Shown here: piece by piece, positions 1 through 3,934 of the stretch
How the letters are laid out: each line of letters begins with the position of its first letter
How positions within the stretch are numbered: position 1 is the stretch's first letter
NCBI GenBank assembly: GCA_016839055.1
Contig: JAEKNX010000024.1
Coordinates: 1-50,660, forward strand
From: Spirochaetales bacterium
Lineage (GTDB): Bacteria; Spirochaetota; Spirochaetia; UBA9216
Reading direction: 5' to 3'
Length of the DNA: 50,660 bases
Made by a program: the position numbers and the translations under genes
Notes under the pieces: model-generated
What the model was told of the DNA's origin: nothing
What the model saw: the letters and a program-made list of their open reading frames with translations, nothing else
The model's database searches: none

Positions 1-40
1 AAACATAAACTCTCTCCATCCCTAATTATGTAAAAGAACG

Positions 41-120
41 ATTGAAAAGTCTTCGACTTTTCAATTAAGAAGTTTTCTTTGAAAACTTCTCTTTATACAA
101 AACCCTGTAGGATTTTGTAA
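41..120. repeat. Cluster of three short perfect or near-perfect hairpins
   Basis: Three stem-loops follow one another. Positions 41-51 pair with 55-65 (11 bp, TTC loop), 68-77 with 81-90 (10 bp, TTT loop) and 96-105 with 110-119 (10 bp with one C-A mismatch, TGTA loop). A fourth, GTTTTGC/GCAAAAC, lies at 176-194. The arms are A/T-rich and the loops very short. They could be terminators for a gene left of the window, or a lineage-specific intergenic repeat. I see no ORF from 1 to 195. The pairing is visible directly; the role is unknown. Confidence 0.6.
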
Positions 121-195
121 TGGATATTCACCATTGTGAGCACCCGTTTAACATTCACAGTACGCTATAATGGACGTTTTGCTTTTGGCAAAACT

Positions 196-645
196 TCATA
201 ATGAAAGCTCAAGGCATTCATTCAGCGGAGGTACAATATACCAATTACCGTTGTTAGTGTCAAGGACTGGAACCGCTCTTTCAGCTCATCTCTTCCGAGT
301 TGCTGTTAAGCAGTTTGTCTCATCGACTGTGATAAGGAATATAATGAAATAGCCCCGCTCTGTCAACGGATTCAGCAATAATCTTTGATAAAATTCAGGA
401 AAATCGAAATAATCAGATAGTTCTTCAAAATCTATAATAATATCAATTCTATCGGTCAAAACCACTAAAGACTTCCCTGCGACAGACCGACAATATCAGT
501 TGCACTAATCCATAAAGTCCCCTTCGGGCGCATAATACGGAAGCTTCCTAAAGATATAGTAGAAATAATCGTTTCCATACCGAGCCTCACCTGGAAAATT
601 TTCATTATCACATCTTGATGAATTACTAAAAACAATTACCGCCAA
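196..645 (-). pseudogene. Decayed gene for a protein of about 150 aa, unknown function
   Basis: Read on the minus strand from a TTG at 645, preceded by AAGAGG with a 6-nt gap, one frame gives protein-like sequence to a stop at 196-198. It is broken by in-frame stops near 505, near 496 and at 286. In the middle, the +1 frame reads LWISATDIVGLSQGSL, which fits between the flanking segments better than the original frame, so two compensating indels are likely. Segments include RYGNDYFYYIFRKLPYYAP, DRIDIIIDFEELSDYFDF and VLDTNNGNWYIVPP. A GTTTTGC/GCAAAAC hairpin (176-194) just past the final stop could have been its terminator. I do not recognise the family. Confidence 0.5.
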
Positions 646-655
646 TTATCGCCTC

Positions 656-684
656 TTGACCGATAACAAAATCAAGGTTATCCT
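656..684 (+). promoter_or_regulatory. Candidate sigma-70 promoter of the ilv leader
   Basis: TTGACC (656-661), a 17-bp spacer and TATCCT (679-684). This matches the -35 consensus at 5 of 6 positions and the -10 at 4 of 6. The expected start is near 691, only about 3 nt before the leader ATG at 694, so the leader would be translated from a nearly leaderless transcript. That fits the lack of a good Shine-Dalgarno there. It is a by-eye match and untested. Confidence 0.4.
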
Positions 685-693
685 TATCGAGTA

Positions 694-909
694 ATGAATA
701 ATCCGGTTCTTCCTGCGTCAAATGCAGTCGTCAGTGTCCTAAGAGTCCTCATAGCCACTTCAGCAGTCGTAACTGCCTTAGCAGTCGTAACTGCCTTAGC
801 AGTCGTAACTGCCTTAGCAGTCGTAACTGCCTTAGCAGTCGTAACTGCCTTAGCAGTCGTCGTCGTGGCAGTCGTCAGTGGACGCTTCGCAACCGGAAAC
901 GTTGGTTAG
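694..909 (+). CDS. Val/Leu/Ala-rich leader peptide of the ilvBN attenuator
   Basis: This 71-codon ORF lies directly upstream of a strong terminator and of ilvB. It has 22 Val, 8 Leu, many Ala and only 1 Ile. The core is five copies of A-V-V-T-A-L from an 18-bp DNA repeat, followed by a run ALAVVVVAVVSG. The Escherichia coli ilvB leader peptide is likewise built of Val and Leu runs and works by ribosome stalling when those charged tRNAs run low. The same logic is inferred here. The stop (907-909) lies 22 nt before the terminator stem. There is no strong RBS; the promoter at 656-684 may give a near-leaderless start. The alternative is a fortuitous ORF through a tandem repeat, but composition, position and terminator argue against it. 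Confidence 0.65.
   Translation: MNNPVLPASNAVVSVLRVLIATSAVVTALAVVTALAVVTALAVVTALAVVTALAVVVVAVVSGRFATGNVG
763..860. repeat. 18-bp tandem repeat, five units plus a partial sixth
   Basis: Unit GCAGTCGTAACTGCCTTA occurs at 763-780, 781-798, 799-816, 817-834 and 835-852 with no differences, then a partial unit GCAGTCGT at 853-860. The period is six codons, so gain or loss of units keeps the leader frame and changes only the number of Val, Thr, Ala and Leu codons. Each unit is also self-complementary (GCAGT-CGTA-ACTGC), so the RNA could form a row of 5-bp hairpins. There are no spacers, so it is not a CRISPR. Confidence 0.95.
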
Positions 910-931
910 TATTTTATTTAATGTAAATACA

Positions 932-966
932 AGCCTGTTGACGGTTACAGTCAACAGGCTTTTTTT
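932..966 (+). terminator. Intrinsic terminator / attenuator before ilvB
   Basis: AGCCTGTTGAC (932-942) pairs perfectly with GTCAACAGGCT (950-960) across a 7-nt loop and is followed by a T tract (960-966). It sits between the leader stop (909) and the ilvB start (987), where an attenuator would be. A smaller hairpin, GTATTT/AAATAC (909-930), abuts it. A possible competing helix is GTCGTCAG (871-878) with CTGTTGAC (935-942), which has one mismatch and one G-U pair. I cannot fold the whole leader by eye. Confidence 0.85.
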
Positions 967-986
967 ATTTTAGGGGGATATAAGAA

Positions 987-2693
987 GTGAAAGACGAAAA
1001 CAGTAAAGGCAACGTTTTGACCGGGGCAGATGCAGTACTTCAAGCTCTGAAAAAAGAAAAAACCAAAATTATCTTCGGATATCCAGGTGGGGCCACACTG
1101 CCCATCTACGACAAACTGGACAAGTACGGAATCAGACACATTCTATGCAGACACGAACAGGGCGGAACCCACATGGCGGACGGCTATGCAAGGGCAACCG
1201 GTAAGGCCGGCGTATGCATGGCAACGAGCGGACCAGGCGCAACAAATCTCGTTACTGGTATTGCAACGGCATTCATGGATTCCTCTTCACTCATCGCCAT
1301 CACCGGCCAGGTACCCAGAGAGATGATCGGAAACGACGCATTTCAGGAAGTGGATATTACTGGGATTACAATTCCAATTACAAAACACAATTATCTAATC
1401 TCAGAACCCGAAGATCTTTCAGATTCCATTCATGAAGCATTCTACCTTTCAACAACCGGGCGAAAAGGTCCCGTTCTAATAGATATTCCAAAGGATGTCC
1501 TGTCTTCCGAATTAAAGGCTCCTGATAAAAACCATAAAAAACCCGTACTTGAGGGATACAATCCTACAATAAAAGGCCACAGCGGCCAGATAAAAAAAGC
1601 GGCGATTCTTCTGCGCAGCGCAAAACAGCCACTCATAATCTCAGGGGGAGGAGTCGCGGGCTCCGGAGCAGAGGACGCCCTCACTTCATTTGCCCGAAAA
1701 TACGAGATCCCGGTTGTCGCTACATTGATGGGAAAAAACGGCTTTCCTAATACCGACAGGCTCTATCTCGGGCTGATTGGTTATCACGGAACAGCCGCCG
1801 GTAACAACGCGGTCCAGAAAGCCGATGTAATATTAGCAGTAGGCACCCGCTTCGGAGACAGGACAACCGGACCGCTTGGAAACTTTGCACCGGAGGCCAG
1901 AATCATCCACATCGACATCGATCCGGCTGAAATCAGTAAAAATATTACGTCTTTCCTTCCTATAGTAGGCGATGCCTCACAGATCATCAATTCCATTAGC
2001 GGCCACCTCGACAAGGAGGGTATTACGGCCTCCAAATCCGAGAAGGAAGAATGGCTTAATTTCCTCCTTAAAATTAAAAAAGACCGGGAAAAACCTGCTG
2101 ACAGCAGCAAACTCAACATTCCGCTTATTCTCGAGAGGCTAAAGAAAATCATCCCGGACCCGATCATGACCACCGACGTTGGACGGCATCAGATATTTGC
2201 CGCCCATCACTTTCCGATTGACCGGAAAAATTCTTTTATCACCTCGGGGGGACTCGGGACAATGGGGTTTGGACTGCCCGCGGCAATAGGCGCCAAGGCC
2301 GGCTTTCCAGATGATACGGTTATTTCGATAAACGGCGACGGATCATTTTTGATGTGCTGCCAGGAACTTGTTACCGCAGTAGAAGAAAATCTTCCCATTA
2401 TTGCCATGGTAATGAAGGACCAGAGGCTGGGCATGATCAGCCAGTTGCAGAGCGCATTCTACGGCGAACGTTACAACTGCTGCGATCTGGGCAAATGTGT
2501 CGATTTCACAAAAATTGCCGAAGGAATGGGTGCTCTGGGAATCAGGGTTGAACAGCCCGATGAGATAGAGGGAGCCATAAAAAAGGCTGTGGCATCGGGC
2601 AGACCGACTGTTATAGAGTTCATCCTGCACGAACAGGGAAACACCTATCCGATGGTCACCGGCAGCAGCCTTACGGACTATATCGAAGAATAA
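987..2693 (+). CDS. ilvB: Acetolactate (acetohydroxyacid) synthase, large subunit
   Basis: This is the TPP-dependent first common enzyme of valine, leucine and isoleucine synthesis, 568 aa, about full length. It has the N-terminal TPP domain with catalytic Glu in RHEQG (about residue 57), SGPGATN, the central FAD/2-ketoacid domain and the C-terminal TPP motif GDGSF (about 450). Two active-site positions differ from the usual pattern. The usual NN before the G-M-V motif reads KD, and the usual G-M-V-x-Q-W-Q reads GMISQLQ, with Leu for the conserved Trp. In known enzymes that Trp affects 2-ketobutyrate preference and herbicide binding. The start is GTG 987, with AGGGGG 9 nt upstream. It is followed by ilvN and controlled by the leader at 694-966. 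Confidence 0.95.
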   Translation: MKDENSKGNVLTGADAVLQALKKEKTKIIFGYPGGATLPIYDKLDKYGIRHILCRHEQGGTHMADGYARATGKAGVCMATSGPGATNLVTGIATAFMDSSSLIAITGQVPREMIGNDAFQEVDITGITIPITKHNYLISEPEDLSDSIHEAFYLSTTGRKGPVLIDIPKDVLSSELKAPDKNHKKPVLEGYNPTIKGHSGQIKKAAILLRSAKQPLIISGGGVAGSGAEDALTSFARKYEIPVVATLMGKNGFPNTDRLYLGLIGYHGTAAGNNAVQKADVILAVGTRFGDRTTGPLGNFAPEARIIHIDIDPAEISKNITSFLPIVGDASQIINSISGHLDKEGITASKSEKEEWLNFLLKIKKDREKPADSSKLNIPLILERLKKIIPDPIMTTDVGRHQIFAAHHFPIDRKNSFITSGGLGTMGFGLPAAIGAKAGFPDDTVISINGDGSFLMCCQELVTAVEENLPIIAMVMKDQRLGMISQLQSAFYGERYNCCDLGKCVDFTKIAEGMGALGIRVEQPDEIEGAIKKAVASGRPTVIEFILHEQGNTYPMVTGSSLTDYIEE

Positions 2694-2715
2694 ATAAGAA
2701 ACCAAGGAGTAAATG

Positions 2716-3201
2716 ATGAACCATACAATATCCATCCTTTGTGATGATCAGCCCGGGGTAATGACCCGGATTTCAGGCTTGTTTTCCCGCCGAGGATTTA
2801 ACATAGAGAGCCTGACCGTCGGCCACACAGAAATTCCCGGAAAAAGCCGGTTTACAATTGTGGTAAAGGGAGATGACAATGTTCTCGAGCAGGTCCGAAA
2901 ACAGCTTCAGAAAGTTGTACATGTAATAAAGGTCTGGGATATAAAAAAAGCAGAAGCAGTCGAACGGGAACACGCGCTGATGAAGATAAAGGTGACTCCG
3001 GAGGTCCGCAGTGACGTACTTCAAATTATCACAGCGCTTCAGGCGAGGATAATTGACTCAAGTGGTTCTGTCTGGATTCTTGAAATAACCGGTGATACGA
3101 ATTCTGTAAACAACGCGTTCAACCTGCTTAGTGATTATAATATTATTGAATCAATAAGAACCGGGAAAATCTCCCTCAAGAGAGGGGAGCAGGTAAAATA
3201 A
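2716..3201 (+). CDS. ilvN: Acetolactate synthase, small regulatory subunit
   Basis: This 161-aa protein has an N-terminal ACT domain (ISILCDDQPGVMTRISGLFS, about residues 4-23) and the C-terminal domain typical of IlvN/IlvH. It activates the large subunit and carries feedback inhibition by valine. AAGGAG (2704-2709) favours ATG 2716 (6-nt gap) over the adjacent in-frame ATG 2713 (3-nt gap). It lies 22 nt after ilvB in the same operon. Its 3' end overlaps the end of the convergent histidine-kinase gene by 26 nt, so no terminator can lie between the two genes. Confidence 0.93.
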   Translation: MNHTISILCDDQPGVMTRISGLFSRRGFNIESLTVGHTEIPGKSRFTIVVKGDDNVLEQVRKQLQKVVHVIKVWDIKKAEAVEREHALMKIKVTPEVRSDVLQIITALQARIIDSSGSVWILEITGDTNSVNNAFNLLSDYNIIESIRTGKISLKRGEQVK

Positions 3202-3934
3202 GAGAAAAAGTGCTGCCTTCAGCCTCCGCGCTGCTGACCCGAATTTCTGCATTAAAATATTCGGCAAAGCGGCTTGAGGCAAGAAGTCCAAGACCGGTGC
3301 CGGCCTCTCCCTCGGTGCCATGTCTCTTCCAGCTAAATTCCGGCTTAAAGAGTTTGCTCTGATTTTCAGAAGAGATACCTACCCCCCTGTCAATTACCTG
3401 TATTTCATCATTCGAGCCGTTTTTAATACAGCATATGGATACAGAACTTCCCCTGGCAGAATACTTCACGGCGTTAGTTAAAAAATTTTTAAGCACAAAT
3501 TCCAGCATCCTGGAATTTGCCGACACAATCTGCTGCTCATCATAATCATGCTCTAACTCAATATCTTTATCTGTAAAAAACGTTCCCAGATTATTAAGAA
3601 TTTCCTCAAGGATCAGTTTAAGCGGAATGAGTTCAATTGTTTTTTCAAGTTTGTTCCGTTCGATCCGGCCCCACTCGAACAAATTTTCTATCAGATTATA
3701 GGTATTCTGGAGGGATTCATGGATGGTGCTTATATATTCCTGAAGATCCTCAGGAGAAAAACTGCTGACATTCTTACTGAGCATTTCGGATATCCCAAGA
3801 AGCCCGCTGAACGGACTGCGAAGATCGTGGGACGTAACAGCAAAGACCCTGTCCCGCGACAGCTTGATCTGATGATATTTTTCGATTATCTCATCTTTCG
3901 ACAAGTCCCGGATTTCACTATCACTGATACTCAT
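3176..3934 (-). CDS. Soluble sensor histidine kinase
   Basis: A 252-aa kinase core without a membrane or sensor domain. The HisKA H-box is SHDLRSPFSG (His about 36), followed by the HATPase_c N-box (NFLTNAVKYS, about 150), G1 (DRGVGIS) and G2 (GTGLGL). The roughly 25 residues before the H-box look like a short coiled linker, so the input must come from a partner protein or from an upstream gene lost in this lineage. No response regulator is adjacent. GAGG lies 8 nt before the ATG. The gene ends inside the 3' end of ilvN. Function in signalling is certain at family level; the signal is unknown. Confidence 0.85.
   Translation of the reverse strand: MSISDSEIRDLSKDEIIEKYHQIKLSRDRVFAVTSHDLRSPFSGLLGISEMLSKNVSSFSPEDLQEYISTIHESLQNTYNLIENLFEWGRIERNKLEKTIELIPLKLILEEILNNLGTFFTDKDIELEHDYDEQQIVSANSRMLEFVLKNFLTNAVKYSARGSSVSICCIKNGSNDEIQVIDRGVGISSENQSKLFKPEFSWKRHGTEGEAGTGLGLLASSRFAEYFNAEIRVSSAEAEGSTFSLILPAPLS

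Follow-up and report, generated by a model that had tools for sequence, protein, structure and literature searches.

A predicted Val/Leu-coded attenuator with an apparently leaderless leader ORF and a private in-frame tandem array upstream of ilvBN in a member of the Spirochaetia

The DNA analysed here, referred to below as the window, is one entire contig (C32, 50,660 bases) of a marine spirochaete genome of 5.0 Mb. Close to its first base lies an acetolactate synthase operon, ilvBN, which is preceded on the same strand by a promoter, a short open reading frame (ORF) and an intrinsic terminator, laid out as follows.

656-684, plus strand: sigma-70-type promoter (-35 box TTGACC at 656-661, spacer of 17 nt, -10 box TATCCT at 679-684)
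691-694, plus strand: predicted transcription start, placed by the position of the -10 box
694-909, plus strand: leader peptide ORF of 71 aa, with 22 Val, 8 Leu and 1 Ile
702-708, plus strand: segment 1, TCCGGTT, within leader codons 3-5, predicted to pair with 891-897
748-765, plus strand: diverged unit ahead of the array, encoding L I A T S A
766-855, plus strand: tandem array of five exact copies of GTCGTAACTGCCTTAGCA (VVTALA), found with TRF
856-879, plus strand: leader stretch VVVVAVVS downstream of the array, adding more control codons, with similar Val runs in congeners
891-910, plus strand: segment 2, the 5' strand of the antiterminator predicted by folding, spanning the end of the leader ORF with its stop codon
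929-946, plus strand: segment 3, the 3' strand of the predicted antiterminator, which doubles as the terminator's left arm and loop; its CGGTT is conserved in all four congeners
931-970, plus strand: intrinsic terminator, stem 931-942/950-961, loop of 7 nt, T tract to 970
987-2693, plus strand: ilvB, acetolactate synthase large subunit (TIGR00118, 701 bits, cut-off 538)
2713-3201, plus strand: ilvN, acetolactate synthase small subunit (TIGR00119, 176 bits, cut-off 57)

The promoter hexamers agree with the consensus at 9 of 12 positions. The ORF that follows has an unusual composition: across the 30 long ORFs of the window, from which both codon usage and the comparison of Val content were drawn, the maximum is 12 Val per 71-aa stretch, against 22 in the leader, which is far above chance. 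Its stop codon occupies 907-909, and 21 nt further downstream begins a terminator stem of 12 bp (six of them G-C pairs, -19.5 kcal/mol), which sits between the leader ORF and ilvB and is conserved in congeners in both structure and place. ilvB itself starts with GTG, preceded by AGGGGG. An earlier note on this DNA had described most of these elements, and the promoter-like boxes, the 71-codon ORF of the composition given above with ilvB after it, and the tandem repeat built into the ORF are all borne out. Its terminator and T tract are there as well, although the stem is not the 11-bp GC stem it reported, and the distance it gave from stop to stem (22 nt) is close to the one we count. Further upstream, in a 640-bp stretch that holds no convincing gene, the minus strand carries two promoter-like sites about 100 bp apart (235-263 and 338-366) with identical hexamers (TTGACA, 17 nt, TATATT; 11 of 12 matches). 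A weak match to TD-2 RNA lies on the minus strand at 37-114 of the window (32.8 bits versus a gathering score of 48.7).

One reading of such an ORF is that it encodes a functional small protein, whose proximity to ilvB is incidental or which acts in trans in the manner of Sinorhizobium peTrpL. The peptide is 71 aa long and strongly hydrophobic, and trans-acting leader peptides do exist, as described in PMC7298713. Comparison with congeners argues against this reading. The leaders upstream of ilvB in three of them, MKNPVAVISSAVVNILNVLVAVKTASAVVDVVVRRGSSVTG in G003, MKNPVTAITNAVLNILNLLVVVLVVVGRGCSATGKHG in G001 and MKTMLKAKTAVVENLNNLLVVVSRLCCLKAGSTG in G002, have promoter, terminator and ORF ends in common with the window's leader, down to an identical -35 hexamer and 17-nt spacing, whereas the middle of the ORF differs. 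The peptides measure 34-41 aa and keep just the start (NPV), a Val/Leu run and the end. Class-wide, too, what is conserved is geometry and codons rather than protein sequence, and we consider a function of the peptide as a protein highly improbable.

The same comparison bears on the origin of the control codons, which the earlier note had derived from the repeat. The 18-bp array is absent in G003, G001 and G002, where G003 has a single diverged unit (VKTASA) homologous to the one ahead of the array in the window. Because congeners bear Val/Leu runs without any array, the repeat is not needed for control codons to be present; the array multiplies them, and to that extent the earlier derivation stands. 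By parsimony, the ancestral leader would already have been Val/Leu-rich, with the repeat added later.

The earlier note had also proposed comparing the regions upstream of ilvB in related spirochaetes. We scanned about 105 upstream regions, obtained 50 automatic matches and, after manual inspection, removed nine of these as duplicates, doubtful or spurious, which left 41 curated leaders before acetolactate synthase genes of the class Spirochaetia. These span at least 13 families, although they share descent and are hence non-independent data points; 22 are mainly Val/Leu-coded and 19 mainly Ile-coded, control codons being swapped between Val/Leu and Ile according to the paralogue. The window's leader is the longest of the set (71 aa versus 22-44 aa in the others). 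With homologous leaders and terminators in congeners and throughout the class, the reading of this region as a Val/Leu-coded, translation-dependent attenuator of ilvBN, already put forward in the earlier note, is strongly supported by the comparison; within the open-licence literature, we found no report of attenuators in spirochaetes. Leaders are not universal in our survey: upstream of four ilvB orthologues with 60-62% identity (L060 in G171, L062 in G195, L063 in G213 and L064 in G231) we found no leader or terminator. In these four, other reading frames seem to abut ilvB, so that control may have disappeared or shifted elsewhere.

The window's genome also encodes a second acetolactate synthase operon, ilvB-ilvN-leuA (G000:C15, minus strand of the contig; L096, L119), whose third gene we take to be leuA from its sequence. 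Its leader, MNLRTTSGKSIISLPSIIILLRKRIMQGD, is Ile-coded and lacks the array. Since one leader is Val/Leu-coded and the other Ile-coded, the two operons seem to sense different amino acids. Ile leaders like MNLRTTSGKSIISLPSIIILLRKRIMQGD also precede the paralogue in G001, G002, G003 and G004, and across the genus the -35 box reads TTGACC in Val/Leu-coded ilvBN copies and TTGACA in Ile-coded paralogues (656-661 in the window; L091, L093, L095, L096, L101).

How would ribosomes enter such a leader? The leader ATG lies 9 nt past the -10 box, and there is no Shine-Dalgarno sequence. Transcription usually begins about 7 nt past the -10 box, so that ORFs opening 6-12 nt past it would have a 5' UTR of zero to a few bases. 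The window's leader ORF, with a predicted 5' UTR of about 0-3 nt, looks leaderless, a feature that the earlier note overlooked. Nor is the window alone in this. The start codon falls 6-12 nt past the -10 hexamer in 35 of the 41 leaders compared to 7.7% in shuffled sequence, keeping in mind that this fraction is somewhat favoured because several leaders had more than one ATG and the promoter was considered when picking the start. Pairing with the anti-Shine-Dalgarno sequence points in the same direction, with a median of +0.3 kcal/mol before leader ORFs versus -9.8 kcal/mol before ilvB (n=24, the ilvB starts that could be called). G030 and its near-duplicate G050 are exceptions, with a greater distance from -10 box to start and an AGGAG site. 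Many mRNAs of Leptospira interrogans are leaderless (PMC5243855), and leader peptides of this type have been reported from Streptomyces lividans (PMC8079986) as well as C. diphtheriae (PMC5784534). In the open-licence literature, we found no report of leaderless leader peptides in spirochaetes; the cases we did find belong to the Actinobacteria.

At its other end, the leader is arranged much like those of its relatives. The gap between stop and stem measures 17-26 nt in 35 of the 41 leaders, most commonly 21-23 nt, and because this is the rule the window's 21 nt are typical. The earlier note had regarded the spacing as not textbook and had placed the best competing helix (871-878 with 935-942) 30 nt before the stop. 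Neither view is supported: that helix does not pair as written, and the best competitor pairs 891-910 with 929-946, overlapping the final leader codons and the stop. Two other candidates were rejected. Shifting the earlier helix to 874-881/935-942 yields 8 bp, three of them G-U, and 891-910 with 929-946 is better; a strand of the array (840-857) forms a duplex of -14.8 kcal/mol with segment 3 in isolation, but the partition function with a stalled ribosome favours 891-910. The same antiterminator is found in G000, G003, G001 and G002, with one change from A-U to G-C in G002, and pairs AACCG or AAGCCG close to the leader end with the CGGTT of the terminator loop, extended by a neighbouring helix.

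To model this competition with the ribosome in different positions, we folded truncated transcripts running from the front edge of the ribosome to the terminator loop. Averaged over the 41 leaders, the predicted sequestration of the terminator's left arm amounts to -9.7 kcal/mol with the ribosome stalled upstream versus -2.9 kcal/mol with the ribosome at the stop, and the mean z relative to shuffled upstream sequence is -1.84 +/- 0.22 (standard error, n=41). For single leaders, antiterminator stability clearly exceeds shuffles in only some of the cases (G003 ranks 21 of 60). A ribosome positioned at the stop would cover half or more of the partner strand in 35 of the 41. The window's own leader gives -11.3 kcal/mol stalled versus -2.7 kcal/mol with the ribosome at the stop; its antiterminator is predicted to exclude the terminator and to lie under a ribosome that has reached the leader stop, which is the textbook geometry. 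Three leaders of one family (L080, L082 and L086, from G183, G140 and G207) have an unusually long gap between stop and terminator (38-45 nt) and partner strands past the stop codon, possibly another arrangement.

Folding with and without a stalled ribosome was likewise an idea of the earlier note, and the expected contrast appears in the truncated transcripts and disappears at equilibrium, where the terminator of the entire leader reaches P = 0.98 wherever the ribosome stands. Since the terminator always wins at equilibrium, the switch must work kinetically, as known attenuators do. A further helix joins segment 1 (TCCGGTT, 702-708) to the AACCGGA of segment 2 (891-897) in G000, G003 and G001 and is absent in G002. 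It is a candidate anti-antiterminator, which would bring about termination when the leader goes untranslated, and its pairing has a modelled P of about 0.5. Segments 1 and 3 would vie for one and the same stretch of segment 2, and sequestration in untranslated RNA is weaker than with a stalled ribosome (-5.7 versus about -11 kcal/mol).

With this much structure, one might instead suspect a riboswitch or another structured RNA in place of a leader-peptide attenuator. The overall fold is strong (z -4.98), though much of this strength comes from the array's own hairpins. Searched at a permissive threshold, Rfam returned weak matches only and none at gathering score; the best match touching the leader when positions 1-3500 were scanned is the trpB motif (898-971, 33.9 bits versus 59), which mainly covers the terminator. 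Conservation, moreover, coincides with ORF and terminator, and which amino acids the control codons specify, Val/Leu or Ile, varies with the paralogue. We regard a structured RNA as the explanation that is hardest to credit. The leader shares with the Leptospira ilvB (WRC-14-1) motif, a weak riboswitch candidate with 7 representatives (PMC8632094), the property of being a conserved element upstream of spirochaete ilvB; by its sequence features, it belongs with ribosome-mediated attenuators.

Sequence and comparison show which parts are present, how they are conserved and arranged, and that the array is private to this genome; where transcription starts, ribosome stalling, antitermination and any effect of the array are what we infer. 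Very probably, the leader is a ribosome-mediated transcription attenuator through which ilvBN senses charged Val-tRNA (and Leu-tRNA), and the following mechanism is a probable one. Transcription would begin at the leader ATG or no more than about 3 nt from it, and a ribosome would load on the 5'-terminal AUG. Imagine that Val and Leu are ample: the ribosome would reach the stop at 907-909 and cover segment 2 (891-910), leaving segment 3 free, so that the terminator (931-961) would form and transcription end. When Val or Leu is scarce, the ribosome would stall somewhere in codons 5-61, and the exposed segment 2 would pair with 929-946 ahead of synthesis of the terminator's right arm, allowing the polymerase to continue into ilvBN. 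In an untranslated transcript, segment 1 would rival segment 3 for segment 2. There is a counter-point: with a ribosome late in the array, segment 1 would lie behind it and might, in principle, still pair with segment 2.

What sets this leader apart is the array. TRF delimits it at 762-860 (period 18, 5.5 copies, 100% matches, score 198), and the five in-frame copies of GTCGTAACTGCCTTAGCA are identical at all bases, synonymous sites included (expected by chance: 0.02). Because its unit length is a multiple of 3, any number of copies preserves frame and stop and keeps the spacing between stop and terminator. The array contributes 10 Val and 5 Leu codons, half of each unit being control codons, and a perfect five-fold in-frame repeat has in this way doubled the length of the sensor peptide. 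It occurs once in the whole genome, which led us to reject a dispersed genomic repeat as its source, and in one of the 41 curated leaders, none of the 40 relatives having it. The array is hence best described as a species-private in-frame expansion of a unit found once, and diverged, in G003, a relationship that also escaped the earlier note. The copy number may include an assembly error; the 99 bp lie within short-read reach. Our search of the open-licence literature returned no report of tandem repeats in amino-acid leaders.

There are two main ways to account for the array, both of which accept the attenuator as such. On the first, it is a neutral product of slippage, a recent expansion of a self-complementary 18-bp unit. 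Identity of the five copies even at synonymous sites is as expected for recent expansion, and each repeat holds a perfect 5-bp hairpin (GCAGT-CGTA-ACTGC). Folding is also compatible: the array folds at -27.7 kcal/mol, more stably than 60 of 60 codon-shuffled versions (mean -18.5 kcal/mol), and because the units fold on themselves, the fold of the switch hardly varies with their number. Predicted antiterminator strength changes little between 0 and 10 units (-10.5 to -9.3 kcal/mol) and, with the native array, falls inside the range of codon-shuffled arrays, so that the array is nearly neutral for the fold; we rejected the idea that it disturbs or strengthens the antiterminator on these grounds. 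Being in frame and self-folding, an expanded array would be tolerated. That no other leader among the 41 has such an array, and that congeners have Val/Leu runs without one, fits neutrality too. What neutrality does not predict is that a unit made half of control codons should be placed exactly in the control region. Weighing these points, we see the case for neutral slippage as evenly poised.

On the second account, the array was selected to adjust gain: additional control codons would bring the response on sooner and make it steeper, and slippage could change the copy number with the frame preserved. According to Elf and Ehrenberg (PMC1183508), sensitivity is high where control codons and transcribed bases are both numerous, and we built a race model in their spirit, with RNA polymerase at 45 nt/s, translation at 15 codons/s and a head start of 15 nt. 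With Val limiting, this model places half read-through at control-codon rates of 5.5, 7.9 and 8.9 /s for 0, 5 and 8 units, respectively; the corresponding 10-90% ranges are 2.77-, 2.24- and 2.17-fold, a progressive narrowing, and five units raise basal read-through from 0.6% to 3%; these values hold for one fixed set of parameters of our own choosing, which tempers their weight as support for selection. The array's 10 Val and 5 Leu codons should, by this model, shift the response to milder limitation, and such an effect would be expected even in the absence of selection, which sits awkwardly with a strictly neutral array. That extra units let the operon respond to milder starvation is plausible, but selection for it is another matter. 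The array is known from a single genome, and a longer pure Val run would serve equally with less DNA. For a mixed control region such as VVTALA, only half of which consists of control codons, theory predicts a lower sensitivity per codon than for an uninterrupted Val run (PMC1183508). Even with unit length preserving the distance from stop to terminator, we lean towards doubting that the array was selected for gain. A function of the array is unproven, and neutral slippage about as likely.

The E. coli ilvB leader (ivbL) encodes 32 aa, has a ribosome-binding site and is not known to contain a tandem array. Like it, the window's leader is rich in Val and Leu, is predicted to form mutually exclusive antiterminator and terminator structures and precedes an acetolactate synthase operon; unlike it, the window's leader is 71 aa long, carries the array and lacks a Shine-Dalgarno sequence. 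Another such attenuator is that of ilvBNC in Corynebacterium glutamicum, for which PMC11857589 (citing Morbach et al. 2000) describes a 15-aa IlvL with three consecutive Val, a three-hairpin arrangement, a transcription start one nucleotide from the start codon and no ribosome-binding site. Both are Val-coded leaders of an ilvB attenuator, and the window's leader is predicted to have a leaderless start of this kind; the actinobacterial IlvL has no array, compared to five units in the window. The nearest known case of repeats inside a leader ORF is Streptococcus gallolyticus pil1, where 5-bp GCAGA repeats move the stop codon by frameshift and in-frame changes are without effect (PMC3894217). 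There, too, tandem repeats lie in the leader-peptide ORF just before a terminator, and their number is variable in pil1. The window's unit differs in being 18 bp long and always in frame, in coding for the sensed amino acids and in belonging to a biosynthetic operon. Being in frame, the array cannot act by frameshift as in pil1.

The attenuator itself is ordinary; the interest lies in control codons multiplied by an in-frame array private to this genome, and in an apparently leaderless architecture seen class-wide. The comparison points to Val/Leu- and Ile-coded attenuators throughout the Spirochaetia that are apparently leaderless, an architecture so far documented, within the open-licence literature we found, in Actinobacteria. 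The boldest statement would be that an in-frame minisatellite within a leaderless leader ORF sets the sensitivity of this operon, and that attenuators of this kind seem both widespread in the class and undescribed; in full, it strikes us as unlikely. If it were true, each 18-bp unit would add control codons and transcribed bases while leaving fold, frame and spacing intact. Elf and Ehrenberg's models predict that sensitivity rises with precisely these two quantities (PMC1183508), and because the array varies both in equal steps with the fold untouched, the prediction is directly testable. With units gained and lost by slippage, the starvation threshold of a biosynthetic operon could then evolve fast.
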